The position numbers and the translations under genes were made by a program. A model generated the notes under the pieces. The model saw only the letters and a program-made list of their open reading frames with translations, had not been told where the DNA came from and ran no database searches. From positions 1 through 46,367 of the IMG/VR virus record IMGVR_UViG_3300027909_000034: a stretch of 46,367 nt of DNA. The stretch is one strand, 5' to 3'. Shown here one piece after another: positions 4,668-42,286 of the stretch. Source of the stretch: a virus. How positions within the stretch are numbered: position 1 is the stretch's first letter; each line of letters opens with the position of its first letter.

Positions 4668-6092
4668 ATGAGCCGCATCCTTCTGCAACTGCTTGCACCG
4701 TTCCTGCCCGGCGGGTTCTTCGCGCCGGGTCTGGTCAATCAGCAAGCCTCCTTCGCAGCCGATGTCAGCAACTACATTGCCGACAAGACGCTGCCACTGG
4801 CGCGGCGGCAGCTGATTGCCTATCAGTTCGGCGATCCGCTCGACTTGCCCGCGCATTCGGGCCTGACCTACACCGCCTCGCGCTACGAGCGTCTGCCGCT
4901 GCCGTTCCAGCCGCTGACCGAAGGTGTAGCCCCGCCCGGATCGGCGATGACGTTGCAGCAGGTGCAGGCGACCGCGCAGCAGTGGGGCGACCGCGTGATC
5001 ATCACCGACGTGGCCGATCTGACCATCAAGCACCCGCTGTTCAAAAAAGCGGTGGAACTGGTGGGCATGCAGCTGCCCGAAACCCTGGAGCGCAACACCT
5101 TCACGACCCTGCAGTCGGGCGTGCAGGTCAATTTCGCCAACGGGCGTGCCACACGCGGCGCACTCACCGCGACCGACGTGCTCACGCCTTTGGAAGTCTC
5201 GCGCGTGGTGGGCTCGCTCACGACCTACGGCGCCCCGCGCTTCATGGGCGACGAGCGCGAGGACATGAAGATCGACGCCGACCGCTCGCCCAACCGGGGC
5301 AGCAATTCGCCTGCGGTCATGGAGCACTACGTCGCGCTGGTGCATCCGCTGGTGTCGCAGGACTTGCGCCAGAACGCATCGGTGGTGCAGGCGTGGGCCT
5401 TCAGCGATGTCAACCGGCTCTACAACAACGAGCTTGGCGCGTGGGGCGGGGTGCGCTTCTGCTCGTCCAACATGATCCCCTATTGGGTGGGCGTGGCGGC
5501 AGTGAGCGGCACGGCCTCGGCCACCGGCGGCTCGCTCGCCACCTCGGCCACCTACAACATTCAGGTCACCGGCGCACCGGCGCAGACCTCGGTCGAGCAG
5601 CGCATCTATGCCGCCTCGGGCAGCATCTCGGTCACCGGCCCGACCGGCTCGATTGCGGTCACTACGCCCAACGTGCCGGGCTACGTGTTCAACATCTACG
5701 TGAGCAGCACGGCCACCATCTCCAACCTCGGCTTGACCGCGCTGGGCCCGACCTCCGGCCCGCTCGCAGGCAACGCCGTGCAGCTGCCGCCCAACACCAG
5801 CGTGGTCATCACCGGCATCGGCGCGGCGCAGACCCCGCCGCAGGCACCAACGGCAGGGGTCACCGTGTTCCCGACCTACTTCATCGGGCGCGGGGCCTAC
5901 GGTCAGGTCACCTTGGCCGACGCCGAGTTCCACTACCTGACCGGCGCGGACAAATCCGATCCGAACAACCAGACGCGGGTGGTGAGTTGGAAGGTGTTTT
6001 ACGGCTCGATCTTCTTGAACCAAGGATTCATGGCGCGCGTGGAATCGGCTAGCGCCTTCGCGGCTGGCTACACGAGCGGCACCGTTTCCTAA
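4668..6092 (+). CDS. Major capsid protein, N4-gp56 family (474 aa)
   Basis: The first 270 residues follow the N4-gp56-type capsid pattern. They include a segment ending in LPLPFQPLTEGVAPPGS, a block with QWGDRVIITDVADL, the stretch around LERNTFTTLQSG, and VMEHYVALVHPLVSQDL. The C-terminal part with AYGQVTLADAEFHYL, VVSWKVFYGSIFLNQGFMARVES is also typical. Residues about 275-395 are a Thr/Ser/Gly-rich beta insertion (SVTGPTGSIAVTTPNVPGYVFNIYVSS), probably an Ig-like surface domain. GGGGAG precedes ATG 4668. The first 20 residues (LLAPFLPGGFFAPG) match the scaffold N-terminus. A strong terminator follows, as expected for a highly expressed virion gene. Confidence 0.9.
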   Translation: MSRILLQLLAPFLPGGFFAPGLVNQQASFAADVSNYIADKTLPLARRQLIAYQFGDPLDLPAHSGLTYTASRYERLPLPFQPLTEGVAPPGSAMTLQQVQATAQQWGDRVIITDVADLTIKHPLFKKAVELVGMQLPETLERNTFTTLQSGVQVNFANGRATRGALTATDVLTPLEVSRVVGSLTTYGAPRFMGDEREDMKIDADRSPNRGSNSPAVMEHYVALVHPLVSQDLRQNASVVQAWAFSDVNRLYNNELGAWGGVRFCSSNMIPYWVGVAAVSGTASATGGSLATSATYNIQVTGAPAQTSVEQRIYAASGSISVTGPTGSIAVTTPNVPGYVFNIYVSSTATISNLGLTALGPTSGPLAGNAVQLPPNTSVVITGIGAAQTPPQAPTAGVTVFPTYFIGRGAYGQVTLADAEFHYLTGADKSDPNNQTRVVSWKVFYGSIFLNQGFMARVESASAFAAGYTSGTVS

Positions 6093-16700: not shown

Positions 16701-18358
16701 CCAGCTTCCGCGAGTTGCCGATGTGGGCCACGCGCCTGCCCGGCGGCAATTACCTGCAGATCGCAGAGAAGTCGTTTCCGCAGGTCAAGCAGATGCTGCA
16801 GGCGCGCGACCCGATGGCTTTCGAGGAGCAGCTGGGCTTCTGGCGCGGGCTGGAGCAGACCATGCAGGGCTCGGTCAACGCCACCATGCTCAACCCGGCG
16901 TTCCACATGTTCACGGTGGCAAGCCGCATGGCGCCGTTCGAATTTAAATCCAACCCGTGGTGGACGCCCGACTCGCACCAGCGCGCGGTGCAGATGCTGG
17001 GCAACCGCGAACAGATGCAGCGCATGCGTGCCGATGGCTACCGTCAGTTCCCGGTGCGGCAGACCGACCTGCCCACCGGCGCGCAGATGGGCGCGGTCGA
17101 AAAGCTGATGCGAAAGCACCCCATGAGCGAGAAGACCTACGCGGCTTGGATCGGCTCGCACAACTGGATGGCGAAGTCGGTGAACTTCTGGCAGGCGATG
17201 TTCTACGACATGACCAAGGCCGACCTGATGAAGAAAGGTGCGCCGGAGCAGGCCGCGCACCTGATGGCGATCCGCAAGTCGAACACGATGGCGGGCAATC
17301 TCGCCAAGGCCGAGATGCGTCCCGGCTGGTGGAAGGGCATGGGGTCCACCTTCTTCTCGCGCGGCTATACCTCCACCGTGCTGCGGCAGCTGACGCGCTC
17401 CATTGCGCACGACAAGACCTTGCAGGCGGCGCTGCGCCAGCGCGGTTTCACCCCGGAGCAGGCGATGAAGCTGGTGCACCAGAACCGCGACGACTTCGCC
17501 GCCGCGCTGATGCGCGACTACATCATGTTCCAGACCTCGATGCAGGCGTGGAACTACACGGCCACCGCGCTGTACGACGAGGAGGACAAGCACGGCAACA
17601 CGGGCGGGCACTTCACTTGGCAGAATAAGGGCTCGGAGGGGATCGGCGATGTGATTGCGCCCACGCGCGTGTTCTCGGGCCGCGACGAGGAAGGCAATGG
17701 CATCTACCTGCGCGCGCCGTTCCGTACCACGCTGGACATGCTGCTGTTCCTCAAGCAGCCCGCGCAGATTCTGAGCGGCGAGCGCCCGGAGTGGATCACG
17801 CATAAGGTGCATCCGATGGTGCGTGGTCTGCAGCAGCAGTTCTCGGGCGAGCACTTCGGCGGTCAGCCGATGGGCGACAGGCCCGCCACGCTCGCCAATA
17901 TTGTTGAGAGCACCGTGCCGCCGCTGGGCGATACCGCGCACGCCGCCGCCGAAGCCTACCGCCAGCAAAACGCCGACTATCTGGCCGACTACCTCACGGG
18001 CGTGGTCAAGAATATCGGCGAGCATCCCTTCGTCACCGCCGGGAATCTGATCGGCGCGCAGGTGCGGGTGGTCGATCCGCACTACGAGGCCAAGCGCGGG
18101 TCTACTGAAGTGTTCCAGAAGCGCGACGTGCTGCAGAAGCGCGCTGGTAAGATTCGCCAGCAGTGGAAGCACATGGACGAGGAGGACCGCGATGCGGCCA
18201 CCGCCTCGATCCGCGAGGAGGCGCGCAAGCTGGGCATCCGCCCGCCGATGCTGGGCCCGCCGCGCGCGCCGGGACCGACCACCAAGCGCGCCATCGAGAA
18301 CCTGCGCAAGGGCGAGGACAAGGAGCCTGAGCGCGATCCGATCCCCATCACGCAATGA
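13790..18358 (+). CDS. Giant internal virion protein (1522 aa)
   Basis: This is the largest protein of the genome. GPWQDY occurs three times at residues 3-8, 22-27 and 41-46, an exact 19-residue period. Residues about 150-260 and 300-560 are Pro-rich linkers. The helical C-terminal half (about 980-1450) is dominated by segments such as MLNPAFHMFTVASRMAPF, AWIGSHNWMAKSVNFWQAMFYD and FFSRGYTSTVLRQLTRSI. I associate these with the large polyvalent-protein C-terminal domains (LPD38-like) of phage ejection proteins. No lysozyme or polymerase motif is obvious. The start is GTG 13790, 3 bp after the previous stop. It ends in an ATGA overlap with the next gene. Confidence 0.75.
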   Translation: MAGPWQDYESAAPAEPAAGPRGPWQDYGPIKEGGQTAAPAGPWQDYAAPSPPPGPAGKIVVELPPLRKLGPAEHEAEQRKFDTQVGQEEQAARSSNLQAIDRELRVNKNPAAREILLKERARIALGEAKKTHGPAVPAPYRNPKPVNLPGPSAGLDFYERYVTPFAENALALGSGMVAAPVAGLSGMAALPVPGVSAADVVNRVQSGLTYAPRTRGGEQQSQRFGHLMEYPSRPAMAAGEALADAGYPNAAVVARTALDPWAWLAIYGGLPRGGPPLRPSAAPQVPWQGQGLSRPPAPRPPSPPGPMPPAPTPPGGVPRTEPSLGQYPEVTGPEFSPLGRDIAPLERRPEPALGGLPEPSKPEFPNADITQNVGGFEFDRIAPSKKPRLKGPPATEREVPGSVQVGDQPPIAVGEPALPTPPVQQVGALAPEQTPIAPAPDLGGLPPPPQGELPPVPPSPGHSARLDFTGQTVAKGPELPRPPYEPPIPEGELDFSGRSTARYDLTSPDDVAAGVHVVEDTSRRTGGTEEGRGYQHKQTIAFRTKIEEYLFKSATEGQKQDMWFNRLQDRVRNLEPEESGYADLADMTIPELQRAAKRYRDQVRTQVEAAARDYEGEQINVRARPYDRSVYEEPGAPPAPPAPEPGGLPLPPGGAAAAPEEAPAPAEAPALPLPPRPPAKLKAETRGGLDLTTDSLTTAISKLGGLSRDQMLDIVGDTKGSYKTKSGLSVFRKGGADIDTMLQRLYENHYISEENWLKDNGKSWLEEALHEEIGGTKKHYSLGGDEEARFARMRDDYYGGGPGSLSANPWFNPKRMLKAVREAVQSLTGMTDAGQIGAGAGGRGHGIAWQYDNLVESARMTGMEDMAAVKRNKANAGSAKQKRKDIGTLSAIEDENIHLREIASQRLSQRWSQEELDLGDPPRTPEAMAVENEKIRRLLAREQLQRKLVSTGEAVNLNRAAHGDTVKQEGASFRELPMWATRLPGGNYLQIAEKSFPQVKQMLQARDPMAFEEQLGFWRGLEQTMQGSVNATMLNPAFHMFTVASRMAPFEFKSNPWWTPDSHQRAVQMLGNREQMQRMRADGYRQFPVRQTDLPTGAQMGAVEKLMRKHPMSEKTYAAWIGSHNWMAKSVNFWQAMFYDMTKADLMKKGAPEQAAHLMAIRKSNTMAGNLAKAEMRPGWWKGMGSTFFSRGYTSTVLRQLTRSIAHDKTLQAALRQRGFTPEQAMKLVHQNRDDFAAALMRDYIMFQTSMQAWNYTATALYDEEDKHGNTGGHFTWQNKGSEGIGDVIAPTRVFSGRDEEGNGIYLRAPFRTTLDMLLFLKQPAQILSGERPEWITHKVHPMVRGLQQQFSGEHFGGQPMGDRPATLANIVESTVPPLGDTAHAAAEAYRQQNADYLADYLTGVVKNIGEHPFVTAGNLIGAQVRVVDPHYEAKRGSTEVFQKRDVLQKRAGKIRQQWKHMDEEDRDAATASIREEARKLGIRPPMLGPPRAPGPTTKRAIENLRKGEDKEPERDPIPITQ

Positions 18359-19068
18359 ACCTGCCGATGGAAAGCGAACTGCTCAACTACAACGTGCCCG
18401 AAGTGTGCCGCGCGCTGACCGACGCGCGCGGCGACATGATCGTGGCCGCGCGCCTGCTGCGCGTGAAGGTGCGCGACGTGCGCGATGCGATCCAGATGAT
18501 CCCCGAAGTACAGGGGCATTTCATGGCCGTGCAAAAGGCGGTCGCCGAGCACCCCGACGTGGAGCGCGCCACCTCACAGCAGCTGGACCGGCGCATCCGC
18601 CACCTGACCACGGTGTATGCTGCCGACGGGTTGGAGGCGCTGCACGAACTGGCAACGCAGCCGTTCATTCAGGACAGCTACATGATGGACATCAAGTTCA
18701 AGGCGGCATCCAAGCTGGTGCAGGCCAAGCCGGTTGACGGGCGCAACGACGACATCGGCCAGCTGATGGTGGCGCTGAACGAGCAGTACCAGAAGTCCAG
18801 CGGTCGCATCACGCATCTGAGCATGCAGCTGGAGCGCATGCAGGGAGGGGGTGAGTCGCTTCATATAGAGGCCACGAGCGAATCTCCTCCCGCCACGCAT
18901 GAAATAACGCTAGTTCCCTTAGATGCTGTGCCTGAATCCGGTTGTACGCCGGAGCCACTGCCGGAACCGGACGACAGTGCAGTAGCTCGTAGCAATACAC
19001 CGATCCCATACGCTGCAGATCACGCAGCTGACCGCGCGACACCGGATAGTCTCGATCCAGAACCTTGA
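18355..19068 (+). CDS. Helix-turn-helix protein, possible small terminase (237 aa)
   Basis: Residues about 12-45 (VCRALTDARGDMIVAARLL then VRDVRDAIQ) look like a helix-turn-helix of the kind found in small terminase subunits. Residues 60-150 are helical. From about residue 150 the protein is low-complexity (Pro, Glu, Ser, Ala) and this part overlaps the opposite-strand gene 18809-19771 for 260 bp. The start overlaps the giant gene stop (ATGA). It is far from terL, which is unusual but not unknown. Other DNA-binding roles are possible. Confidence 0.55.
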   Translation: MNLPMESELLNYNVPEVCRALTDARGDMIVAARLLRVKVRDVRDAIQMIPEVQGHFMAVQKAVAEHPDVERATSQQLDRRIRHLTTVYAADGLEALHELATQPFIQDSYMMDIKFKAASKLVQAKPVDGRNDDIGQLMVALNEQYQKSSGRITHLSMQLERMQGGGESLHIEATSESPPATHEITLVPLDAVPESGCTPEPLPEPDDSAVARSNTPIPYAADHAADRATPDSLDPEP

Positions 19069-19771
19069 GCGGCCCGGCGCTGGGCGCATAGCCCACCATG
19101 TCGTAGGCTTCCTGCAGCAGCCCGTTGCTCGGGCGGCGCAGCAGGCGCACCAGCCGGAACGGGCGCGACACCATGCCGCGCGTGAAGTTGTTGTGATTGT
19201 TGTACAGGCGGCTTTGCACCGCCTCGGGCAGTCGCGTGCGCCCCATGACCTCGCGCTGGTTGACGATGATGTAGGCGTTGGGGTCCAGCCCCAGCGCGCG
19301 CACTACCAGCTTGTGCTGATCGGTCAGTCCCTCCTTGAGGCAGGCTTGCATGTCGGCGTAGAGCAGCTGCGCCTGCTCGGCGGACGGATAGCGAAAGTCC
19401 ATCTCGCGCTCGATCAGGGCCCACGTCACGGCCGGGCGCGACACCACGATCAGATCGCTGGTGCGCGTGGCCGCGCGCTTGAAGTCGTGCGGGCTGATCG
19501 GGAAGGTGAGCAGCACCACCGCATCACAGCGCAGCGCCGGGTCGCACTCGATCCGCTGCAGCAGCACCCCGCCCTGTTGATACCACTGCGCCAGCTGCGT
19601 CTTGGCGCTGGCCGGGAACTGCGCGATGAACTGCGGCAGTCCCTTCAGCGTCTGGTAGTCGAACAGCGCGTAGCTCGCCGTGTCGTTGTGGCAGTTGACC
19701 CACACCCGCCCGAAGTCGCGGTACAAACCGGCAATGGTGCCCAGCGTGTCCTGGGTGGCAAACTTGCGCAC
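18809..19771 (-). CDS. Unknown 320-aa protein, last gene of leftward strand
   Basis: A soluble-looking protein with no signal peptide and a Trp/Tyr/Arg-rich composition. Its conserved-looking centre is LGLDPNAYIIVNQREVMGRTRLPEA followed by LYNNHNNFTRGMVSRPFRLVRLL. I do not recognise it. GTG 19771 is supported by GGAGG nine bases upstream. Its 3' 260 bp run antiparallel through the tail of the gene 18355-19068. It lies beyond the plus-strand lipoprotein gene, so it probably has its own transcription start or is read through from the leftward operon. Confidence 0.75.
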   Translation of the reverse strand: MRKFATQDTLGTIAGLYRDFGRVWVNCHNDTASYALFDYQTLKGLPQFIAQFPASAKTQLAQWYQQGGVLLQRIECDPALRCDAVVLLTFPISPHDFKRAATRTSDLIVVSRPAVTWALIEREMDFRYPSAEQAQLLYADMQACLKEGLTDQHKLVVRALGLDPNAYIIVNQREVMGRTRLPEAVQSRLYNNHNNFTRGMVSRPFRLVRLLRRPSNGLLQEAYDMVGYAPSAGPLKVLDRDYPVSRGQLRDLQRMGSVYCYELLHCRPVPAVAPAYNRIQAQHLRELALFHAWREEIRSWPLYEATHPLPACAPAACSDA

Positions 19772-19796
19772 GCTCTAACGCCTCCGGGGGGACGTG

Positions 19797-19973
19797 ATGA
19801 AAGCCGTAATCCTAGCTGCGCTGCTCGCCTGCGGCTGCAGCAACACGCCGCTCGCCAAGCGCGCGTGGCATGAGTTGACCGACGATGCGGCCCCTTCGTG
19901 TACCTGCGCGATTGTGATCTTGGACGGGGAGGGCAAGGTGCTCAAGGAAAAACCGCCGCGCGCGGGGGAATGA
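19797..19973 (+). CDS. Small lipoprotein (58 aa), possible Rz1-like
   Basis: The N-terminus MKAVILAALLACGCSNTP is a short lipoprotein signal with lipobox LLAC, lipidation expected at Cys12. The mature part is only about 47 residues and has two further Cys (CTC). GGGGGGA precedes ATG 19797. It is a lone plus-strand gene between two minus-strand genes and is below 60 residues. Outer-membrane spanin subunits (Rz1) are similarly short lipoproteins, but no partner was found, so a superinfection or surface role is equally possible. Confidence 0.6.
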   Translation: MKAVILAALLACGCSNTPLAKRAWHELTDDAAPSCTCAIVILDGEGKVLKEKPPRAGE

Positions 19974-19992
19974 CGGCGCGCGGCGGGTGCGG

Positions 19993-20427
19993 CTAGTGCG
20001 TGCGGCGCTTGACGACGAACCCTGCCACCATCAGGCCAGCGGCCAGCGTCATCCACGTCTGCGGCTCAGGTACGGGCGTCAGGAAGGCGCGTGTGCTACC
20101 GACGGCGCTGACTCGCTGAGTGAATTGAAAGAACCACATCTCCTCGCTCACGCTGATCCGCGCACGCCCAGCTGGCGGCGTGACAAATTCCAGTACGAAC
20201 AGGTCGTCCGGCCACGATCCCTCTCGGATATTGACCTGCTGCGTCGTCACCCCGCTGCCGCTCATGACAAGGTATTGCGATCTGGGCGGTGGCGACGGGC
20301 GGGAGTAGGGCAGGATGTAGACCTCGAAAGACGTGTTGGTGAGGTTGTTCACGGTCAAAACAGCGGCATGGGCAGCGTGGCCCAGCAACAGCGCCGGGAT
20401 CAGCAAAAGCCCTAACTTGGTTTTCAT
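19993..20427 (-). CDS. Secreted PEP-CTERM protein 1 (144 aa)
   Basis: The protein has a classic Sec signal peptide (MKTKLGLLLIPALLLG, cleavage after AHA, about residue 21) and a C-terminal PEP-CTERM sorting signal. The signal comprises VPEPQTW at residues 119-125, a hydrophobic helix (MTLAAGLMVAGFVV) and a basic end (KRRTH). Known: exosortase recognises this tripartite signal, cuts at PEP and sends the protein to the cell surface or exopolysaccharide. The mature domain is a beta-rich stretch of about 95 residues with no recognised family. AAGGGA precedes ATG 20427. The gene is the downstream neighbour of a second PEP-CTERM gene with an almost identical tail. Finding such a host-surface sorting signal in a phage operon is unusual. 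Confidence 0.9.
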   Translation of the reverse strand: MKTKLGLLLIPALLLGHAAHAAVLTVNNLTNTSFEVYILPYSRPSPPPRSQYLVMSGSGVTTQQVNIREGSWPDDLFVLEFVTPPAGRARISVSEEMWFFQFTQRVSAVGSTRAFLTPVPEPQTWMTLAAGLMVAGFVVKRRTH

Positions 20428-20455
20428 TGTTATGTTCCCTTTTGGTTGGTACTTC

Positions 20456-20971
20456 TCACTTCGGACTACGGACCCTTCTTACAACAACTCCGGTCAACAC
20501 GAGGCCCAGCGCCAGCATGGCCCACGTCTGCGGCTCGGGGATGGCGTAGATAGAGGCCGTGTAGGAAAAGCGCCTCGGCGACTCGCCCCGGAACTCTCTG
20601 GTCGCGGCCGGGCCCCAAATCAATCCGGCGTTGGTGTCCCAGCGCAATTTAGGGTTGTCTGGCAGGGTGAGTTGCGCGATCAGTACCGGAAGGGCGAGCG
20701 GGATCACCGAGTTGTCGGCAGCCACATCGAAGCGGATGACCTGACCCTGGAAGGCTTCGAAGTCGAACTCCTCGGCGGGCTCGGCGATGCCAACGTGCCC
20801 GGCGCGAATGAATCCGGTGAGCGGGTGGCTGCGTGTGAGCAGATCGAAGCGATCACTGCCCACATGCAGGGCATAGACATCCACCGCGCGGTCGATGCGT
20901 GCGTGGACGATGATCGCGCTGGCTTGTCCGGCGAACAGCGCCAGCGCGAGGGCGACAAGTATCTTCTTCAT
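20456..20971 (-). CDS. Secreted PEP-CTERM protein 2 (171 aa)
   Basis: It has a signal peptide (MKKILVALALALFAGQASA, cleavage after ASA) and a C-terminal PEP-CTERM signal: IPEPQTW at residues 144-150, the hydrophobic AMLALGLVLTGVVV and the basic RRVR end. The mature part (about 120 residues) is beta-rich, with FDFEAFQGQVIRFDVAAD and FSYTASIYA strands; no family recognised. ATG 20971 has GGAGG seven bases upstream and overlaps the RuvC-like gene stop (ATGA), so it is translationally coupled to a core phage gene rather than a loose insertion. The longer open frame to 21160 is rejected. Predicted destination is the host surface or EPS via host exosortase. Confidence 0.9.
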   Translation of the reverse strand: MKKILVALALALFAGQASAIIVHARIDRAVDVYALHVGSDRFDLLTRSHPLTGFIRAGHVGIAEPAEEFDFEAFQGQVIRFDVAADNSVIPLALPVLIAQLTLPDNPKLRWDTNAGLIWGPAATREFRGESPRRFSYTASIYAIPEPQTWAMLALGLVLTGVVVRRVRSPK

Positions 20972-21435
20972 GGTAGTACCTCCATTGGTTGCGGTATCGG
21001 ATTGACTAGCTCTGCATAGGTCACTGCAAGCGCGAGCGCCTGCCACTCTCCTCCTTTCAGTCCGTGAGTCAGGCCGGGATTTTTCTTGGTGCCCGGTGCA
21101 CCGAAGCGGTCGATCAGGGCTTGACGGATGTTGCTGTCCTTGGCGCGCGTGTCGTGGCAAACGTGCTGCTTGACCGTGATGCGCTTGACGCGCGTAGCCT
21201 TGCCGTGCGCCTCGGCAAAGCGCCCGCTCCAGAACACCGTTTCGAACACGTCTTCACCCACTGCCATGCCGTAGCTGGCAACCTGCTCGATCACCAGCCT
21301 CGTGCGGGGGTTCGTGCGCAGGTAGCGCAACAGCTGCTCGTTGTTTTCGGTGTTGGCGTCGATGCTGCCGCTGTCCGTGTCGTAGACCACCGAACTGCTG
21401 ACCACCGGCCCCGGATCGATCGCGATGATTTTCAT
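20968..21435 (-). CDS. RuvC-like Holliday junction resolvase (155 aa)
   Basis: The N-terminus MKIIAIDPGP carries the first RuvC acidic residue (Asp7). A second acid lies in the strand RLVIEQVASYGM, and the C-terminal helix NPGLTHGLKGGEWQALALAVTYAE takes the place of the family's last acidic helix. This RNase H-like nuclease resolves branched DNA and is common in phages, where it helps make packageable DNA. It overlaps both the ATPase gene upstream and the PEP-CTERM gene downstream by ATGA. At 155 residues it is of usual length. Confidence 0.8.
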   Translation of the reverse strand: MKIIAIDPGPVVSSSVVYDTDSGSIDANTENNEQLLRYLRTNPRTRLVIEQVASYGMAVGEDVFETVFWSGRFAEAHGKATRVKRITVKQHVCHDTRAKDSNIRQALIDRFGAPGTKKNPGLTHGLKGGEWQALALAVTYAELVNPIPQPMEVLP

Positions 21436-22598
21436 CCATCCTCTCCCATCTGTCGGCTGTTGCGCGCTGCTGCCTCCTGCACCATCGAGATCGGGTCGCG
21501 CGACTTGAGGCGCGGCTTGCCGTTGGGCAGCAGGCGCTCGGGCTCAGGCTCAGGCTCGGGCTCGGGCTTGGGCTTGGGCTCGGGCTCCGGTGGGTGCGGT
21601 GGCTGCGGTTCGGGCTCCGGCTCCGGCGGCGGCTCGGTCGGGGGGTCTGCCTGTTCCGCAACGATCCGCATGAAGTGCTCCTTCATGCCGTTCTTGATTG
21701 GATCGAGCGGCATGTGCAGGTGCTTGGGCATTGCCATCCAGACCTCGGCCAGTTCGGTCAGATCGCGGCTTGCTTCCAGCGCCGTCTTCCACTTGCGCTG
21801 CTCGGGCGTGAATGGCACGGGCATAACCTCCTGTCTTTGCGCGATCACGTCGCGCAGGTGCTCTTTCTCCTCCGCGTTGCCCTCGGCCCACTGCGCCAGC
21901 CGATGCCCAAGCTGCTCATCCAGTTGCACGCCATCCTTGATGAACTGCTCGAAAGGCGTGCGCAGTCCGTGCGACTGCGCGCTGAAGTCCGGGCGGCCCT
22001 GCGATCCCTCGGGCAGCACCAGCAGGAAGCTCATCTCGTACTCGAAACGATCCGTGATGATCGGCGTCCAGCCAAGTTGCGTAGGTTCCTCGCCCTTGAC
22101 GATCTTGATCTTGTCCTTCGCCCTGAAGCAAAAAATAAAGTGCACCGGCAGTTGCAGCATGGTGTTGACGAACAGGTTGACCTGATGCTTGGGCTCGATC
22201 CACGCCGAAAACGTCAAGCGTTCCCGCTTCTTGTAATCATCTCCTGCGCGCTTGTCTAGCTCGCGGTCGTGCATCTCCAGCACGCCGCCCGGCCCCTCGT
22301 GCATGTGGGAGGCGCTGTCCACGATGATGACAGCGGGCTCAAGCAGCATCGCCTGCTGCACGGCCTCGGTGTAGCGGGCAGGGGAGAAGGGCGCGGTCAG
22401 ATCGCCGTGCAGATACTTGAAGCGGTCGGCGTACTGCAGGCCACGGCGGGCCTCGGTGTCGATCAGGACAATGGGCTTGCCCTGCGCGAGTCCAGCCGCA
22501 ATGCGCAGCGCCGAGTAGGTCTTGCCGGAGCGCGACGGCCCGGCGATGCCCACCATGAGCGGGGTCTGGTTTCTGATTGCGGGTCTGAACGAGATCAT
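21432..22598 (-). CDS. AAA/RecA-type ATPase (388 aa)
   Basis: A Walker A motif GPSRSGKT lies at residues 20-27 and a Walker B-like strand PAVIIVDSASH near residue 90. It resembles phage nucleotide-binding proteins (AAA_24-type) found beside RecE-like nucleases, acting in recombination or replication. Residues about 320-370 are a long Pro-Glu/Pro-Lys repeat, likely an extended linker to a short basic end. ATG 22598 has GGAGGAG seven bases upstream and overlaps the nuclease stop (ATGA). The longer open frame to 23036 is rejected because it lies over the nuclease gene. Confidence 0.8.
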   Translation of the reverse strand: MISFRPAIRNQTPLMVGIAGPSRSGKTYSALRIAAGLAQGKPIVLIDTEARRGLQYADRFKYLHGDLTAPFSPARYTEAVQQAMLLEPAVIIVDSASHMHEGPGGVLEMHDRELDKRAGDDYKKRERLTFSAWIEPKHQVNLFVNTMLQLPVHFIFCFRAKDKIKIVKGEEPTQLGWTPIITDRFEYEMSFLLVLPEGSQGRPDFSAQSHGLRTPFEQFIKDGVQLDEQLGHRLAQWAEGNAEEKEHLRDVIAQRQEVMPVPFTPEQRKWKTALEASRDLTELAEVWMAMPKHLHMPLDPIKNGMKEHFMRIVAEQADPPTEPPPEPEPEPQPPHPPEPEPKPKPEPEPEPEPERLLPNGKPRLKSRDPISMVQEAAARNSRQMGEDG

Positions 22599-23518
22599 GC
22601 TTGCACTCCTCCGCCGTACTGGCTCCAGTCGATCATGGCCGTTTGCGCCTCTTCGAACCGCGTGTGTTCGTAGCTGGGCGCGTCTACCCATGCGATGCGC
22701 TGCGGGTAGGCGGGCCAGTGGTCGTTGTAAATGCCATCGCGCCACATGGCGAGCGCCATGTCCACCTTGTCGCTGCCCAGCCGCATGAAGTCGGGCTTGA
22801 GCGCGATGATCGACAGCAGGTAGGGCGGGGCGCTCTCCTGCACCACGAACAGGTAGCGCGGCTCCTCGCCCGTGAGGGTCTGGTAGCCCCGGCAGTAGAA
22901 TGCGGCGTCCACGTCCCAGCCCATGCTCGCCACTTGCCGCTGCAGGTACAGCGGATTGGCGCTGCCGCTGGTGGTCTTGTAGTTCACCAGGATGTGCTGG
23001 TCGGTGTCGGCCAAGTCCGCACGCGCCCGGCAGCATACCGGCCCCTCAGCCTCCTGCCACAGCATGGTCAACTCGGCATGCTCGTGGCCGTTGGGTCGCC
23101 ACTCGGCGCGCGCCAGCTGCGCACGCGCTGCCTCCACCATCGCCTGCGCGGTCACGTACTTGTCGGCGAGGATCGCCACCTGTCCGTTGTTGGCTGCGTC
23201 CGCGCGTATCTGCTGCGCCTCTTTCGAGCGCCAGTCGTTGGCCTCGACCACGACGATGCGCCCCACACGCAGAGGCTCCAGCAGCATCGAATGCACCGCC
23301 GTACCGAAGTCGGTGCGGTTCTGCTCGGCGCTGTCCAGCTTGGGCGCGGTGTAGTTGGGGTTCAGGCGCGGATGCTGGTGCCATGCGTGATAGGGCGACT
23401 GCGTGAGCATCGTGCAGGCGAGCCCGTGCGAGAGCGTCGGCCCTTGCATCAGATCGTCGGCGTGGTAGCGGTCCTCGCGCACGCTCGGGTGCATCCCTAT
23501 TCCAAGATCATCCCTCAT
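22595..23518 (-). CDS. PD-(D/E)XK exonuclease, RecE/DUF3799-like (307 aa)
   Basis: The pattern LACTMLTQSPYHAWHQHPRLNP followed by FGTAVHSMLL is typical of RecE-like/DUF3799 exonucleases. The nuclease core shows CRARADLAD then HILVNYKTT. In the family the residue two before the Lys is acidic, whereas here it is Asn, so activity may be altered. Known role: 5'-3' resection of DNA ends for recombination. ATG 23518 is chosen because it overlaps the upstream gene's stop (ATGA). Together with the ATPase and RuvC-like genes it forms a recombination module. Confidence 0.8.
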   Translation of the reverse strand: MRDDLGIGMHPSVREDRYHADDLMQGPTLSHGLACTMLTQSPYHAWHQHPRLNPNYTAPKLDSAEQNRTDFGTAVHSMLLEPLRVGRIVVVEANDWRSKEAQQIRADAANNGQVAILADKYVTAQAMVEAARAQLARAEWRPNGHEHAELTMLWQEAEGPVCCRARADLADTDQHILVNYKTTSGSANPLYLQRQVASMGWDVDAAFYCRGYQTLTGEEPRYLFVVQESAPPYLLSIIALKPDFMRLGSDKVDMALAMWRDGIYNDHWPAYPQRIAWVDAPSYEHTRFEEAQTAMIDWSQYGGGVQA

Positions 23519-23910
23519 TGTTTGGTTCCTCCCATGACATCGTTGATCCACTGCGCAATCAGACGCGCGGCGTCTTCTGCGCTCAGGTCGAACTTCAAGC
23601 GGAAGTTCTGCACATAGTCGTACAGCAGGCGCACGTCTTCGCCGCCGAGATAGCGGCGCATGGCGGGCGTCAGATCGCGCTCGGGGTAGGCGTGCATGCT
23701 CATCATGATTGGGTGGCCCTCCTTCGGATGCCAGAAAAATGCTGCGCAGTTCTCGCGGTTGCTCTCCACGAGAGAGGTAATGGTGCCGCGCGGATAGCGG
23801 TCCACCAGCGTGCCCAAGTCCTGCAGCACGCGGGCGGTCGGGCCGCGCACGAGATAGGTCACACCGCCCGATGCGGTGCGCCGCTCGATCTTTGCCGTGC
23901 TCACGATCAT
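23515..23910 (-). CDS. Unknown protein (131 aa) in recombination operon
   Basis: A soluble protein with a beta-rich N-terminus (IERRTASGGVTYLVRGPTARVL) and a helical C-terminus. ATG 23910 has GGAGGAGG upstream and overlaps the next gene's stop (ATGA); its own stop overlaps the nuclease start. Position suggests an accessory recombination or replication role, but no family is recognised. Longer frame to 24303 rejected. Confidence 0.7.
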   Translation of the reverse strand: MIVSTAKIERRTASGGVTYLVRGPTARVLQDLGTLVDRYPRGTITSLVESNRENCAAFFWHPKEGHPIMMSMHAYPERDLTPAMRRYLGGEDVRLLYDYVQNFRLKFDLSAEDAARLIAQWINDVMGGTKQ

Positions 23911-24176
23911 TCTGTTTCCTCCTCCGCGCTGTACGCGGGCCAGTAGATGATGCGGTTGCGGCCCATCGCGTCTTCTTGCGCTAGCTCCAGCACTTCGCAC
24001 ACTTCCAGCATGTCGATGCCTCTGGTGAAGGCTTCCAGCACCAGCTTGCCCGCGAAGTTCATCGCGCTGGGCACGGTCACTGCCACACAGAATTTGCCAA
24101 ACATGCCGCGCCCGCTGTAGCTGCGCGCGTTGTAGCCAGTGCCATCGATCAGTTCGATCAGTTGCTCGGATGTCAT
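23907..24176 (-). CDS. Unknown small protein (89 aa)
   Basis: A short acidic protein starting MTSEQLIELIDG. ATG 24176 is preferred over 24182 because GGGAG lies seven bases from it but almost touches the other. The middle (FGKFCVAVTVPSAMNFAGKLVLEAF) suggests a small alpha/beta fold. It is joined to its downstream neighbour by ATGA. Not recognised. Confidence 0.65.
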   Translation of the reverse strand: MTSEQLIELIDGTGYNARSYSGRGMFGKFCVAVTVPSAMNFAGKLVLEAFTRGIDMLEVCEVLELAQEDAMGRNRIIYWPAYSAEEETE

Positions 24177-24194
24177 GGTCATGCTCCCTTTTGG

Positions 24195-24296
24195 TTAAAC
24201 TACAATGAACACTGCCAGCAAGATCAATACCAGCAGCATGCCGACGTAGAATCCCGGCGTGTCGTGCTTGGCACGCGGAATGCGTGGTGCCCTCAT
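24195..24296 (-). CDS. Tiny membrane protein (33 aa)
   Basis: A basic N-terminus (MRAPRIPRAKHD) is followed by one hydrophobic helix (FYVGMLLVLILLAVFIVV) that runs to the stop. Its ATG at 24296 overlaps the stop of the previous membrane-protein gene (ATGA), which supports it being real despite its size. With its two upstream neighbours it makes a cluster of three small membrane proteins, a possible lysis or membrane-modifying set. Confidence 0.6.
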   Translation of the reverse strand: MRAPRIPRAKHDTPGFYVGMLLVLILLAVFIVV

Positions 24297-24541
24297 GCGT
24301 CACCCCCGCTGACGCTGGGCGTCACCTCGATGCGCTTGCAGTCGTAAAGATATTCGTCTAGCGTCTGCCGACAGACTCGGATTCGGTCGCCGGTTGTCAC
24401 GCGACAGTAGGTTTCGCCGTGCCAGCGCGAGCACCTTACGTTTGGCGTCTCGCGCGTGTGCTGTCCGATGATGAACAGCACGATCACGATCAGCACAAGG
24501 CCCAGCGGCAGATAGATGGTGGAGACAGCCTCCTCGCTCAT
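24293..24541 (-). CDS. Small membrane protein with Cys-rich tail (82 aa)
   Basis: One transmembrane helix (residues about 9-27, IYLPLGLVLIVIVLFIIG) is followed by a domain with four Cys (RCSRWHGETYCRV, RVCRQ, YDCKR). If the tail is periplasmic the cysteines could form two disulfides. AGGAG precedes ATG 24541, and ATGA overlaps link it to both neighbours. Unknown; a holin or inner-membrane spanin role is possible but not shown. Confidence 0.65.
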   Translation of the reverse strand: MSEEAVSTIYLPLGLVLIVIVLFIIGQHTRETPNVRCSRWHGETYCRVTTGDRIRVCRQTLDEYLYDCKRIEVTPSVSGGDA

Positions 24542-24843
24542 GATTGCGGCTCCTGTTTGTTGATGACCGAATGCTTGCTCGCGTCGTCGCACGTTGCGAA
24601 CTTGCGACCGCGCGTGTCCAGGCGAAACGACTGCGCAACGCAGTGCTGTTCTGCCGGGGGCTTGCGCGCCGCGACGTGCGCAACTTGTGCTAGTACTGCA
24701 ACACACAGGGTCACCGCCAGCACTTGCGCGCAGCGGCGGATCAGGTGCTCGTTCAAGTCCAGCGCAATCCAGTCGGCGCTCTTGTCGCGATAGCCGCGCG
24801 TGAAGATGCGCCTTGTGATGCGCGTGTCGTAGGGTGTGCTCAT
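24538..24843 (-). CDS. Small membrane protein (101 aa)
   Basis: The basic N-terminal 38 residues (ITRRIFTRGYRDKS) precede one hydrophobic helix (CAQVLAVTLCVAVLAQVAHVAA, about 38-60), then a polar C-terminal 40 residues. GAGGAG lies six bases before ATG 24843. It is linked by ATGA to the next small membrane gene. No family recognised. Confidence 0.65.
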   Translation of the reverse strand: MSTPYDTRITRRIFTRGYRDKSADWIALDLNEHLIRRCAQVLAVTLCVAVLAQVAHVAARKPPAEQHCVAQSFRLDTRGRKFATCDDASKHSVINKQEPQS

Positions 24844-24858
24844 GCTTTCTCCTCGGGT

Positions 24859-25218
24859 TTACCTGCGCAATAAACGGGCCGCTACTTCCAGCAGCAGCGC
24901 GGCAATCTGCTTGTCGTCGTTTGCGTGGCGCGCTAGATTGATGACGCGCGCTCTCTTTGCGGGCCGCTCTGGAATTGCGGCCAGCGGGAACTCGGTCGGC
25001 TCGGGCTCTGCCTCCTCGCCTTTCAAGGTTTCCAGTTCTAGAACTTTGCGCCAAGGCCAGTAGTTCTTCTCGCTCATGTTCAGGCCGAGGGTGGTAATCG
25101 CCGCTTTCACGGATGCCTTGGGGTGCGCCGCGCGGTACTGGTTTACCTTGCGCGCCATTTCCATGCGCTCGTGCAGCGGTTTGCGCACTCTTGCTGCGGT
25201 GCCTTTATTCCTTGCCAT
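24859..25218 (-). CDS. Small basic, possibly DNA-binding protein (119 aa)
   Basis: The N-terminal 55 residues are basic and helical (ARKVNQYRAAHPKASVKAAITTLGLN) with a helix-turn-helix look. A Pro/Glu linker follows (EEAEPEPTEF), then a second basic helix. A regulator or nucleoid-type role is inferred from charge. It overlaps the upstream gene by 14 bp. Confidence 0.6.
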   Translation of the reverse strand: MARNKGTAARVRKPLHERMEMARKVNQYRAAHPKASVKAAITTLGLNMSEKNYWPWRKVLELETLKGEEAEPEPTEFPLAAIPERPAKRARVINLARHANDDKQIAALLLEVAARLLRR

Positions 25219-25474
25219 CGTTCTCTCTCTTGATTTGGTGGAATTGGACCGAGGTCGGCGTGCGCGTGTACTGACCGATCAGGCGCGCCGTGCGAATGTC
25301 GATGACTTCGATGGTGGTTCCAGGCTTCGCCCAGCGCGCCTCAAGCAATGCGCCCAAATGCGCGTTGCGTGGATACTTGTACCAACGCCAGCGCAACAGT
25401 TCCTCCGCCTTGGCATCCCACAATCGGAACGGCCGCGCGCTGTCTTCGCCATCGTCAATCTGCGGATATTTCAT
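25205..25474 (-). CDS. Unknown small protein (89 aa)
   Basis: A Trp/Arg-rich N-terminus (FRLWDAKAEELLRWRWYKYP) precedes a small beta domain (TTIEVIDIRTARLIGQYTRT). GGGAGGG precedes ATG 25474. Part of the leftward early operon. Not recognised. Confidence 0.65.
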   Translation of the reverse strand: MKYPQIDDGEDSARPFRLWDAKAEELLRWRWYKYPRNAHLGALLEARWAKPGTTIEVIDIRTARLIGQYTRTPTSVQFHQIKRENDGKE

Positions 25475-25490
25475 GTGCCCTCCCTAGTTG

Positions 25491-25688
25491 TCATTCGGTC
25501 ACTTCGTACATCTGCTTCACGCGGCCAACATCGCGCTTGCCGCGCTGGTGCTCTTTGCGGTGCCACTTCTGTCCGCCGCACAGCAGGCAGCGGTAATGGC
25601 GATGGTCGATCTCGCTCCACTGATGCGCGCAGTCCTGGGTGCGCGCGGCAGCGTCGTGTAGGTCTACTGAATTTGTCTGTGCGTCCAA
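25491..25688 (-). CDS. Small zinc-ribbon-like protein (65 aa)
   Basis: The segment CAHQWSEIDHRHYRCLLCGGQKWHRK has His and Cys spacing like a single zinc ribbon (CxxC plus upstream Cys/His). The start is a TTG at 25688 that overlaps the upstream gene by 25 bp; no better start is in frame before the motif. Likely nucleic-acid binding; unknown role. Confidence 0.55.
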   Translation of the reverse strand: MDAQTNSVDLHDAAARTQDCAHQWSEIDHRHYRCLLCGGQKWHRKEHQRGKRDVGRVKQMYEVTE

Positions 25689-26248
25689 ACGGACACCCCC
25701 GTTATCTCATCGGTATAGTCAAGCTCTGGTTCGCACCAGCAATCCGGTTTAGCTTCATGTTCTTTTGTCAGTTCCGCGCGAGCGGCTTTAATGTTGATGC
25801 CGTGTCCCGGCGAAGTTTGCCCTCCTGGGGTGCAGAAGCGGGCGTGACATTGAGCACAGCATCCATTGGTGCAGCGGCTCCAATCTCGCGAAATGTCGCG
25901 GGCACAAACTACACACCGACATGCGTTCATCTGGATTCTCCGGTTAGTCTGTGGTGCGCAAGCAAGCTCGTCGCGGTTGCCGCCGTCTGCGGTGTAGCTC
26001 GCGTCTGCGTCGGGCTTGGTCATGTTCTGTCCGCTATAAGTCTGATGGTGTGTTAGCAATTCTTTCCTGATTCTCTTCGCCGTCCTGAGCACCGCATTTG
26101 CATGGTCGCGCATGCGAGCGCCTATCCAATTTCGATATTCGGCGCATGCTGCTTTTTCGATGTAGACCTCTGCTGTTACTTCAAGTACGTGCGCGAAGTT
26201 GTAGCGGTATACCAGCTTGCGCAGTTCGTCTCGTGCTTCGGGGCTCAT
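25664..26248 (-). CDS. Unknown protein (194 aa), probable two-gene fusion
   Basis: The N-terminal part (residues 1-70) is helical. After a linker with MTKPDADASYTADGGN, a Cys-rich part begins at an internal ATG (25930): CRCVVCARDISRDWSRCTNGCCAQCHARFC, then CWCEPE, a zinc-binding pattern. The internal ATG has its own ribosome site in the same GGAGAATCC cassette that starts neighbouring genes, but here the frame runs through instead of ending in the usual TGES-stop. So it may be a natural fusion, or give two products (194 and 88 residues). ATG 26248 overlaps the previous stop (ATGA). Confidence 0.55.
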   Translation of the reverse strand: MSPEARDELRKLVYRYNFAHVLEVTAEVYIEKAACAEYRNWIGARMRDHANAVLRTAKRIRKELLTHHQTYSGQNMTKPDADASYTADGGNRDELACAPQTNRRIQMNACRCVVCARDISRDWSRCTNGCCAQCHARFCTPGGQTSPGHGINIKAARAELTKEHEAKPDCWCEPELDYTDEITGVSVWTHRQIQ

Positions 26249-26547
26249 TTGGATTCTCCTGTCTGTTCTCCGGTTGGTCCAGCATCAAATACCGCGCGCA
26301 TTTCGTCTCGCGCCAGCACAAGCGCAGCAATCCTTGGACCGGCATCAAACACCGCTTGCATTTCGTCTCGCGCACGCACAAGCGCCGCGATCCTCGCCTC
26401 CGCGTCGCGTATGCGCTCGGCTAGCACATGCCCCGTAACGTAGATGTGCCCGCTGTAACTGGTTGAGCCTGCGGATACCTCACCCCGGTCGTTTATCTGT
26501 GCCTTGCCTTGCAAGTCGTAAACTGCGTTCAGGTCTGCGTAGTTCAT
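26245..26547 (-). CDS. Unknown protein with internal repeat (100 aa)
   Basis: ATG 26547 follows the cassette GGAGAATCCAA and overlaps the upstream stop. The N-terminus (MNYADLNAVYDLQGKAQ) is unremarkable. Residues about 50-92 contain two near-identical 20-residue units (RIAALVRARDEMQAVFDAGP and the same with two changes), from a 60-bp tandem repeat. The end is TGEQTGESK. Helical; unknown. Confidence 0.65.
   Translation of the reverse strand: MNYADLNAVYDLQGKAQINDRGEVSAGSTSYSGHIYVTGHVLAERIRDAEARIAALVRARDEMQAVFDAGPRIAALVLARDEMRAVFDAGPTGEQTGESK
26276..26395 (-). repeat. 60-bp imperfect tandem repeat inside a gene
   Basis: Two adjacent 60-bp units (26276-26335 and 26336-26395) differ at only a few positions. 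They keep frame and encode a duplicated 20-residue helix in the gene at 26245-26547. A recent in-frame duplication is the simplest reading. Confidence 0.85.
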
Positions 26548-26804
26548 TTGGATTCTCCCGTCTGCTGCGTGTGCTCCCACAGGTTCTGGATGTACCAGCG
26601 CGCATTCACCAGCGAATCCACGCGCGCATTGAACTCGGTGCGCGCTTGCTCGTATGCGCTCAGTCCCTGCGGATAGTCCCGTGCATTCGGCTGCGCTCCA
26701 AGCATTGCGCGGATCGCTTGTTCAAGCGCAAGGTTGGCTTCCTCGTACTGCTCGTAGAAGTGCTGGCGTGGCGTGCCGTTCAGGTGGACGGTTGGCATCA
26801 TCAT
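26544..26804 (-). CDS. Unknown small helical protein (86 aa)
   Basis: Helical throughout (FYEQYEEANLALEQAIRAML, AYEQARTEFNARVDSLVNARWYIQNL). Three consecutive ATG codons start it; the first (26804) has GGAGAAC upstream. The C-terminus HTQQTGESK is formed by the shared ribosome-site cassette of the next gene. Unknown. Confidence 0.65.
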   Translation of the reverse strand: MMMPTVHLNGTPRQHFYEQYEEANLALEQAIRAMLGAQPNARDYPQGLSAYEQARTEFNARVDSLVNARWYIQNLWEHTQQTGESK

Positions 26805-27265
26805 TTGGTGTTCTCCTTTTGGGAAATCATGTCATCGACTATATTTATCGCGGCGATCTGGCGCGCGTACTCTTCTGGCATTTCGGTTGCGTCAACTAGG
26901 TTCTGCCGGGCTAGGTCCAGCACGATTTGAAGTGCGGCGGCTTCGTCTGGCTCTTCTTCGTTGTCTCCCAAGTTGTGCAGCGATACATCGCACCCGTGGT
27001 CTTCGTATATCTGCAGGTCAGAGCCGATTGGCGCGTAGAATCCACCCGTATCGTAGAAGTCGATCTTGGCGTCAGCACGCAACGTCAGGATGTAGTACCG
27101 GGCAGGTTTGCGGCGCGGGTAGCTGGTGCGCTTTTGAGCGGCACGCAATGCGCTCTCCGGTGTGTCTGCGCGTGCCCAATGTCCGCCGATGCCCTCGGGA
27201 ATGACGGCTACAAAGTCGAACGTGTTGTGCGCCAATTCTGCGGCGGCTTCGTCTGGTGTCATCAT
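26801..27265 (-). CDS. Unknown protein (154 aa)
   Basis: The N-terminal half looks like a small alpha/beta domain (NTFDFVAVIPEGIGGHWARADTPESALRAAQKR). An acidic middle and a C-terminal helix follow. TAGGAGAGAG precedes ATG 27265 (27262 is an alternative). Linked to the next gene by overlap. Not recognised. Confidence 0.65.
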   Translation of the reverse strand: MMTPDEAAAELAHNTFDFVAVIPEGIGGHWARADTPESALRAAQKRTSYPRRKPARYYILTLRADAKIDFYDTGGFYAPIGSDLQIYEDHGCDVSLHNLGDNEEEPDEAAALQIVLDLARQNLVDATEMPEEYARQIAAINIVDDMISQKENTK

Positions 27266-27276
27266 TGCGCTCTCTC

Positions 27277-27662: not shown

Positions 27663-27674
27663 TGTCGTTCTCCT

Positions 27675-28647: not shown

Positions 28648-28663
28648 TTGCTTCTCCTCGTAT

Positions 28664-28903: not shown

Positions 28904-28913
28904 GATCTGCGGC

Positions 28914-40038: not shown

Positions 40039-40280
40039 TGAGCGGCGGCGACGCGCTGGTGCAGATCGGGCTGGGGCTCACCCTGCTCGGCGCCTACGTG
40101 CTGTTCGTGCTGTGGGCGCGGCGCGAGTGGTTGCATGCGGAGCCCAGCAACCGCCCGGAGCAGTGGCGCTTTCCACCGCCGCAGGAGGAAGCGGCGCCGC
40201 AGGAGCCGCCGCCCAAACGGCGCTGCCGACGCCGCCGGGTGCGAAACCGCCCGCGCCGGGCCATCGTGGTCGTGACGTGA
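40038..40280 (+). CDS. Small membrane protein before terL (80 aa)
   Basis: One N-terminal hydrophobic helix (VQIGLGLTLLGAYVLFVLWA, about 8-27) is followed by a Pro-rich and then very basic tail (PPPKRRCRRRRVRNRPRR). The start GTG 40038 follows the 11-bp duplication. It overlaps terL by GTGA. A holin-like or DNA/membrane-anchoring role is conceivable. Confidence 0.5.
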   Translation: MSGGDALVQIGLGLTLLGAYVLFVLWARREWLHAEPSNRPEQWRFPPPQEEAAPQEPPPKRRCRRRRVRNRPRRAIVVVT

Positions 40281-42286
40281 ATTTAGACCGCACCGAGCTT
40301 TTGCGGCGCATGTCGGAGGACCGCGCGCTCGCGCTGGACATGCTGTTTTCGGCCAAGCACGAGGACGCGACCCCGGCGATCCACCTGAAGATCGTGCAGG
40401 CGTGGCGCTCGGCGCACGAGCGCGTGCTGATCGAGGGCTTTCGCGGCAGCGCCAAGACCACCAAGGCGCAGGAGTTCATCGCGGTCGAAGCCTGTTACGC
40501 CAACTTCCCGTTCGGCCTGCTGTTTGGCGAGACGTGGGACAAGGCGTGTGAAAAGCTGGAGAACATCAAGTTCGCGCTCAAGACCAACCGCATGCTGATC
40601 GGCATGTTCGGCACCCTGCTGGGCAAGGGCGCGACCGACAAAGTGGACTCCATCGTGCTCACCAACGGGGTTCGCATCGACGCCTACGGCAAGGGCCAGT
40701 CGCCGCGCGGTCGCTTGCACCACGACGCGCGCCCGACCTTTGCCATGCTGGACGACATCGAGAACAAGCTGAACGGGGATGTGGCCTCCAAGGAGGCGGT
40801 CGATACCACCGTGTCGTGGTTGTACGCCGAGGTGATCCCGGCGCTCGATCCCAAGCGCGGGCGCATCCGCGTGAACTGCACGCCGGAGGGTACCGACTGC
40901 CTGCCGGTACGCCTTCGCACAGACGACAGCTGGATGCGGTTGTACTTCCCGATCTGCTTGGGCGAGCCGGAGGACGAGGATGCGCAGCCGCTGTGGGAGT
41001 CGCGCTTCGGCCTGCCGTGGATTCGCAATCAAAAGGCGCTGTTCGAACGGCAGGGATTGTCGGACGACTTCGACCGTGAATATATGCTGCGGGCCCGCTC
41101 CAACGAACTCGCCGACTTCGATGAGCGCGACCTGCAGGAATGCCCGGCCCTGCCAACCGACCATCTGCCGGTGTGGGCGATGTACGATCCGGCGCGCACC
41201 AAGGATCGGAAATCCGACAACTACGGGCGGGTGGTTGCCGCCTTTCACGGCAACACGATCTACGTCGTGCTCTCGGGCGGCATGAACTGGAAGCCGTCCG
41301 ACATGATCAACGACCTGTTCGATGTGAACGAGCAGTACCGGCCTATCGGCTTGGGGGTGGAGAGCGATTCGCTGGAGGACTGGATGCGCGAGCCGATCCG
41401 CGCCGAGATGATCAAGCGCAACACCGTGCTGCCGCTGGTCGATCTGCGCGCGCCCAACGACAAGAGCAAGCACGACTTCATCCGGGGGGCGCTGCAGCCG
41501 TTTTGCCGGGCGCGGGCGATTGTGCTGGTGGGCGGGCGCGGCGCGCACCAGCAGCTGGTGGAGGAGATGCGCCGCTTTCCGTCGAAGAACGACAACGTGG
41601 TCAACGCGCTGGCTTATATTGTGAAGATGCGGCCCGGTGAGCCGGTGTACGGCGAGTTTTCCGATGCCAACGTGTCCGTCAACGCGCAGCCCCAGCGTTC
41701 CGGCGCGATCATGCTCGCCTTCAACCAGTCCAGCACCGAGGTCACTTGTGTGGCGGTGCAGCAGGTGGGGTTGGCGTTCTACCTGCTGCGCGAGTGGGTG
41801 GAGCCGGGGGCGGTGGCCGATGCGGTTCGCTCGATCTGGATGTCGGCGCAAGGCGAGCTTGGGCGTCATTCCTTGGTGGCCTACTCGCCTGCCGACGTGT
41901 TCGATGAGTGGACGCGGCTGGAATTGAACCGCCATCTGCGCGGACTGAACATACAGCCAGCACGCGGGGGCTACTATCAGGAAAGCCTCGCCTGCCTGAA
42001 CGACAGCGTGCGCACCACGATCCGGGGCCAGCGGGCGTTGCTGGTTTCGCCCGAGTGCCGCTACTTGATCGCCGGGCTGATGGGCGGCTACGCCATCCCG
42101 ATGAAAGCCGGGCGGCTGGCCGACGAGCCGGTCGAAGGGCTGCACCGCACGCTAGTCGCGGGCCTGGAATGCATGCTGTATCAGGTCATGCGCGGGCAGG
42201 GGGCTGCGGCCCAAGCCAACTACGCCAGCGTGGGCGGGCGCCAGTTCATGACGACCCGGCCCGACATTTACGCCCGTCCGCGCTAG
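40277..42286 (+). CDS. terL: Terminase large subunit (669 aa)
   Basis: Packaging motor ATPase and nuclease. Walker A is GFRGSAKTT (residues 54-62), and Walker B AMLDDIE is at 156-162, preceded by GKGQSPRG, the usual sequence of this family. The nuclease part carries MYDPARTKDRKSDN (about 360-375), a strand with an acidic centre GLGVESDSLEDW and later IVLVGG and NDNVVNALAYI. The start GTG 40277 overlaps the membrane-protein stop; the 724-residue longer frame from 40112 runs through that gene and is rejected. The length of 669 is larger than the usual 450-600, with a long C-terminal extension past about residue 470. Confidence 0.9.
   Translation: MNLDRTELLRRMSEDRALALDMLFSAKHEDATPAIHLKIVQAWRSAHERVLIEGFRGSAKTTKAQEFIAVEACYANFPFGLLFGETWDKACEKLENIKFALKTNRMLIGMFGTLLGKGATDKVDSIVLTNGVRIDAYGKGQSPRGRLHHDARPTFAMLDDIENKLNGDVASKEAVDTTVSWLYAEVIPALDPKRGRIRVNCTPEGTDCLPVRLRTDDSWMRLYFPICLGEPEDEDAQPLWESRFGLPWIRNQKALFERQGLSDDFDREYMLRARSNELADFDERDLQECPALPTDHLPVWAMYDPARTKDRKSDNYGRVVAAFHGNTIYVVLSGGMNWKPSDMINDLFDVNEQYRPIGLGVESDSLEDWMREPIRAEMIKRNTVLPLVDLRAPNDKSKHDFIRGALQPFCRARAIVLVGGRGAHQQLVEEMRRFPSKNDNVVNALAYIVKMRPGEPVYGEFSDANVSVNAQPQRSGAIMLAFNQSSTEVTCVAVQQVGLAFYLLREWVEPGAVADAVRSIWMSAQGELGRHSLVAYSPADVFDEWTRLELNRHLRGLNIQPARGGYYQESLACLNDSVRTTIRGQRALLVSPECRYLIAGLMGGYAIPMKAGRLADEPVEGLHRTLVAGLECMLYQVMRGQGAAAQANYASVGGRQFMTTRPDIYARPR

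Follow-up and report, generated by a model that had tools for sequence, protein, structure and literature searches.

Exosortase (EpsH) and its PEP-CTERM substrates form a protein sorting system of Gram-negative biofilm bacteria, in which the PEP-CTERM genes of proteobacteria are single-gene units behind sigma-54 promoters and EpsH-family genes number one or two per genome (Haft et al. 2006, PMC1569441). PepA of Aquincola, from activated-sludge bacteria, supports floc formation, with a surface or EPS role shown by genetics (PMC9850573). Cyanoexosortase B is needed for polysaccharide adhesion and for normal extracellular levels of several PEP-CTERM proteins (PMC12188702). Most PEP-CTERM proteins have no known function, and the remodelling of the surface of floc and biofilm bacteria by phages has been little studied; phage-borne substrates would link both subjects. 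Phages are not mentioned in PMC1569441, and in the literature that we searched, which covered few subscription journals, no report of PEP-CTERM proteins in phage genomes was found, the matches concerning host genes. From the phage side, the superinfection-exclusion lipoprotein Ltp (PMC3952083) is comparable to the two proteins analysed here (ORFs A and B) in being a phage gene product that is exported and held at the cell surface, while it differs from them in using a lipoprotein anchor in a Gram-positive host rather than exosortase.

ORFs A and B lie next to each other on the minus strand of an IMG/VR virus record (IMGVR_UViG_3300027909_000034), the whole 46,367-nucleotide stretch of which we refer to as the window. 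ORF A (19993..20427, minus strand) encodes 144 aa with a Sec signal peptide, a short mature domain and a C-terminal tail composed of VPEPQTW, a hydrophobic helix and KRR, and ORF B (20456..20971, minus strand) encodes 171 aa with a Sec signal peptide, a mature domain and a tail composed of IPEPQTW, a helix and RRVRSPK. The N-terminus of ORF A reads MKTKLGLLLIPALLLGHAAHA up to the signal peptide cut, followed by AV, and its C-terminus VPEPQTWMTLAAGLMVAGFVVKRRTH; the corresponding sequences of ORF B are MKKILVALALALFAGQASA, followed by II, and IPEPQTWAMLALGLVLTGVVVRRVRSPK. The signal peptides were read directly from the sequence rather than by a dedicated predictor, and both have the basic n-region, hydrophobic core and cleavage site (AHA and ASA, respectively) expected of Sec substrates. 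The initial annotation had described this pair of adjacent genes with Sec and PEP-CTERM signals and had suggested searching it with the PEP-CTERM profile. Its positions were exact, and ORFs A and B scored 21.7 and 23.6 bits against PF07589, both over the curated cut-off of 20.7. In a six-frame scan of the genome with the same profile, the two tails were recovered with E-values of 4.7e-6 (A) and 2.5e-7 (B), and since the scan was silent in 14 control genomes, these tails are well beyond chance.

Like the substrates of the host PEP-CTERM/EpsH system, ORFs A and B thus combine a signal peptide, PEP motif, hydrophobic helix and basic end with diverse mature domains, whereas they differ from that system in being phage-encoded, in lying in a ruvC operon and in having no exosortase in their own genome. 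NCBIfam matches to the two proteins were confined to the tail and mostly under the curated cut-offs. The PEP_CTERM domain model TIGR02595 was passed by ORF B, and no whole-protein cut-off of the named PEP-CTERM families (FxDxF, PepA, cistern, NF038129 and others) was reached by either protein, the best named-family scores being 34.3 against 65 bits for ORF B and 28.3 against 65 bits for ORF A, in the tail only. The sorting signal is shared with the floc protein PepA (NF033554) and other PEP-CTERM proteins of activated-sludge bacteria, while the matches to these families are limited to the tail and lie far under the cut-offs (for PepA, 19.3 and 16.5 bits against 80). AlphaFold models built from the single sequences of A and B had pLDDT values of 35–37 and gave no usable fold. 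Taken together, the predicted targeting of both proteins to exosortase sorting is well supported by their sequences. If the host had no exosortase, the tail could instead serve as a mere anchor of inner-membrane proteins, perhaps acting in lysis or membrane exclusion; signal peptide, C-terminal helix and basic end do make up a type I membrane topology, and the window proteins that were scanned included no recognisable holin, endolysin or spanin. An exact PEPQTW in both A and B would be needless for an anchor, and the motif is conserved in phage proteins that are otherwise unrelated, which makes this alternative unlikely.

The window is a closed or terminally redundant phage genome of ∼46.2 kb. 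Its two ends (1–135 and 46233–46367) are 97.8% identical over 135 bases, with three mismatches, and contigs of other assemblies cross the junction of the left and right ends at 99.9–100% identity, from which we concluded that the genome is essentially closed. It encodes a large terminase subunit, a hallmark of tailed phages (40112..42286, plus strand; phrog_38, E = 1.8e-44), a major head protein (4668..6092, plus strand; phrog_1357, E = 2.5e-40) and, according to the PHROGs and Pfam protein scans, a head-tail adaptor or portal-type protein. Of the window proteins compared with PHROGs and Pfam, none was assigned to an integrase family, which makes it likely that the phage is lytic. As the genome closes on itself, ORFs A and B are not host flank. 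Chance tail matches or a contig of host DNA would be in keeping with the modest single profile scores of the two tails, but two independent matches, each with a signal peptide, occur here in one small genome, and a closed phage genome recovered from several assemblies with terminase, portal-type and head genes refutes such an artefact, to which we assign next to no probability.

The pair forms the end of a minus-strand phage recombination operon. Upstream of ORF B lie a gene for a RuvC-like Holliday junction resolvase (20968..21435, minus strand; phrog_1770, E = 1.4e-13), an operon gene of unknown function (21432..22394, minus strand; phrog_1366, E = 4.6e-29) and, in the same operon, a gene for a RecE/exonuclease VIII-like nuclease (22595..23551, minus strand; phrog_412, E = 2.1e-52; PF12684, PF12705). 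The stop codon of the resolvase gene overlaps the start of ORF B in the sequence ATGA, and the proposed joining of ORF B to a RuvC-like gene within the recombination operon was thereby borne out. Directly behind ORF A, an intrinsic terminator with a G+C stem followed by UUUUU was found (19942..19986, minus strand; -25.8 kcal/mol, z = -3.17), as good as which none of 200 shuffled sequences was; it was missed by the consensus scan, presumably because its loop exceeds the 8-base limit of that scan. This strong hairpin shows that the pair closes the operon, and together with the ATGA coupling it places ORFs A and B under phage control. Their membership among the phage genes thus rests on the closed genome, the overlap with ruvC and the terminator. 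In the gap behind the pair, on the opposite strand, a possible lipoprotein of 58–59 aa (MKAVILAALLACGCSN..., 19794–19973, plus strand) was also seen, the end of which overlaps the terminator hairpin. The phrog_1366 protein contains low-complexity Pro-Glu and Pro-Lys repeats at 21536–21650.

Within 300 bp upstream of ORF A or B, no strong sigma-54 (-24/-12) site was detected, in contrast to the promoters of proteobacterial PEP-CTERM genes (PMC1569441); this is a weak result given that the scan performed poorly on host genes. The scan was noisy overall, at least 9 of the 12 positions being matched by 12 of 73 viral and 4 of 31 host PEP-CTERM genes. With the same noisy scan, sigma-54-like sites (10 of 12 matches, 67–101 bp before the assigned start) were seen in four other viral records (L074, L080, L088 and L096), and weaker ones upstream of PEP-CTERM genes in three more (L077, L079 and L081), the scan being noisy in host controls as well.

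The initial annotation had considered the two tails likely to have arisen by duplication, on the grounds that they share the DNA for PEPQTW while the mature domains differ. A 15-nt stretch, GAGCCGCAGACGTGG, is indeed identical in both tails, and a comparison of the mature domains of A and B revealed no similarity. However, 11 of 16 host PEPQTW genes are just one base off this stretch, although the ACG common to A and B occurs in none of them, and the two tails share 59% of their amino acids, a value that 4 of 50 host tails reach against A and 19 of 50 against B. Because host tails reach 59%, the 15 nt are near the standard host spelling and the mature domains are dissimilar, a tail duplication is not established from these sequences: neither tail identity nor motif spelling supports it over the host background.

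We then searched for relatives of the two proteins and of the phage. No homologue of A or B was found in 50 697 GenBank phages, where a generic PEP-CTERM tail query gave merely two irrelevant matches (E = 8); the same query recovered annotated PEP-CTERM proteins in plasmids. In IMG/VR, A and B had no homologue beyond copies of the same phage, and the only close relatives of the window phage were such copies at 99.9–100% identity. Nine relatives of the ruvC gene (44–51% identity) had no PEP-CTERM gene and no match to other window genes, and were too distant to test the pair. The nearest phages had head proteins 23–28% and nucleases 29–32% identical to those of the window; their hosts were mixed and gave no indication of the host of this phage. 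A DNA search of 369 genomes against positions 18001–38000 of the window gave mainly low-complexity matches, most of them near 21536–21650, and no usable spacer or prophage linking the phage to a host, leaving no clear host link.

Among bacteria, a pattern scan of 84 980 bacterial and archaeal genomes with ORF B gave essentially tail-level matches, and its mature domain had at most marginal matches in 399 Burkholderiales genomes (best E = 8e-4). These searches bear on whether A and B are passive cargo, that is, host PEP-CTERM genes recently acquired and still to be lost. With ∼70 PEP-CTERM genes per host genome, such genes are easily captured, but no close host homologue of A or B was found (the bacterial-genome searches being made with B) and the two genes are embedded in the operon through ATGA and the terminator. 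Since comparable phage genes described below are also under purifying selection, we regard passive carriage as quite improbable, even though one recurrent phage protein belongs to a host family.

A profile search with PF09721 found no exosortase in the window genome, in line with the earlier observation that such a gene was missing and that the host enzyme would be needed. Exosortase was likewise found in none of 48 viral records, all of which carry PEP-CTERM substrates. This number carries little weight, because with 70–75 PEP-CTERM genes in each host genome, or ∼70 substrates per one or two enzymes, only about one exosortase would be expected among the 48; the count is close to chance and non-significant, and we rejected it as evidence of host reliance. 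The same figures, substrates in 48 of 48 records and the enzyme in none, would also agree with a decoy function, in which the host exosortase is kept busy by abundant phage tails and host PEP-CTERM proteins no longer arrive at the surface, so that EPS is loosened or receptors become exposed; the mature domains would then matter little. The conservation of the tail would agree with it too, given that the mature domains have no relationship to one another, whether within a pair or between phages. On the other hand, the mature domains of the recurrent phage pair described below are under purifying selection, for which a pure decoy would have no need, and we consider this function rather improbable.

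To place the pair in a wider context, IMG/VR was scanned with the tail alignment, and at least 184 confirmed tail-encoding stretches were obtained, of which 80 were kept; all of the 47 records then tested were over the PF07589 cut-off. Given the number of PEP-CTERM genes in host genomes, host DNA beside proviruses was to be expected, and some of the 184 stretches are probably of this kind; a number of contexts were therefore read one by one, and two kinds proved clearly viral. A PEP-CTERM gene was found among phage genes in seven examined contigs (L094, L098, L090, L082, L087, L089 and L100). In L094, L098 and also L138, PEP-CTERM genes stand behind phage replication genes, and structural genes on the other strand run towards them; the replication genes tested in L094 encode a DNA polymerase, a primase-helicase and a phrog_62 helicase, and one of the structural proteins encoded by L098 has a match to phrog_6121. 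In L090, PEP-CTERM genes lie just ahead of a phage DNA polymerase gene. Although the layout of these loci resembles that of the window, no match to the window genes was found in them. In the other four contigs, a PEP-CTERM gene at ∼9.4–10.1 kb adjoins, on the opposite strand, a head-tail adaptor gene of phrog_477 (L082 and L089) or phrog_442 (L087 and L100), and in L082 the gene for the major head protein lies on its other side. The position beside the adaptor would be a slot for accessory (‘moron’) genes with their own promoter.

Two adjacent PEP-CTERM genes were found in eight records (L076, L077, L079, L080, L081, L086, L090 and L094). The recurrent pair, located at 9443–10721 in L094 and at 8759–10096 in L090, consists of a ∼215-aa protein with EFSGG...DGDG and a ∼200-aa protein with CDGC...FDNSTF, the two genes standing in reversed order in L090 and L076. 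It resembles A and B in that two neighbouring genes for exported PEP-CTERM proteins sit amid phage replication genes, but the mature domains are unrelated to those of A and B, and no window gene is shared within the compared loci. The L090 and L094 copies are 60–65% identical in two phage backgrounds, and dN/dS between non-identical copies was mostly ∼0.15–0.74 for both proteins; as these values are below 1, the sequence comparison indicates that the pair proteins are under purifying selection and kept functional. The second protein of L094 belongs to FxDxF, a host family (NF038126, 76 against 50 bits). A search of 399 sampled Burkholderiales genomes did not find the first protein, whereas the same query recovered all of the five viral records used as a positive control, down to 62% identity; the first protein may therefore represent a phage-associated family, the hosts sampled being Burkholderiales.

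The recurrence in several unrelated phages strengthens the initial idea that phages encode their own PEP-CTERM proteins, and A and B are one case of a wider pattern that is unreported in the literature searched, PEP-CTERM sorting and phage-encoded surface proteins both being already known. The reading that we favour, with somewhat better than even confidence, is that A and B serve as substrates, supplied by the phage, for a presumed host exosortase and are made before lysis to alter the surface or EPS of the infected cell. Because their genes sit in the replication and recombination operon, the two proteins should be made before lysis, co-transcribed with the phage recombination genes. They would be exported by Sec and held in the membrane by the tail, and cleavage by the host exosortase would release them to the surface or EPS, steps proposed here because PEP-CTERM proteins are known to behave so. 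Display on the infected cell would be the natural reading of these signals. At the surface, the proteins could alter the encounter of the infected cell with other phages or with the matrix, the most likely benefit being that competing phages are excluded or that EPS or floc adhesion is changed. Export, cleavage, location and effect are what we infer for A and B, and their function may accordingly be superinfection exclusion or a change of EPS or flocs.

More generally, phages probably use the sorting enzyme of the host to change the surface of the infected cell. Whether phages of exosortase-bearing bacteria share a recurrent, previously undescribed class of accessory genes is, in our judgement, evenly balanced. 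The class would comprise host-exosortase substrates that rewrite the surface or EPS against rivals or retain progeny in flocs and biofilms, with some families unseen in the sampled hosts, and its genes would repeatedly occupy one of two slots: the replication operon, inside it or at its end, where they may be paired or single, and the strand opposite to head-tail connector genes, next to these. Being small, such substrates would lend themselves to tests against rival phages and against EPS, and exosortase sorting would join lipoproteins and membrane proteins among the routes that phages use to alter the surface of their hosts.

Elsewhere in the window, a protein of 348 aa (38202–39248, plus strand) begins with a signal peptide-like sequence; it had no PHROG, Pfam or PEP-CTERM match and is possibly a third exported phage protein. 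A helix-turn-helix (HTH) protein with similarity to sigma-factor region 4 (36440–36877, plus strand) is likely a phage transcription regulator and is the probable source of the LuxR-type (GerE) match in the window.
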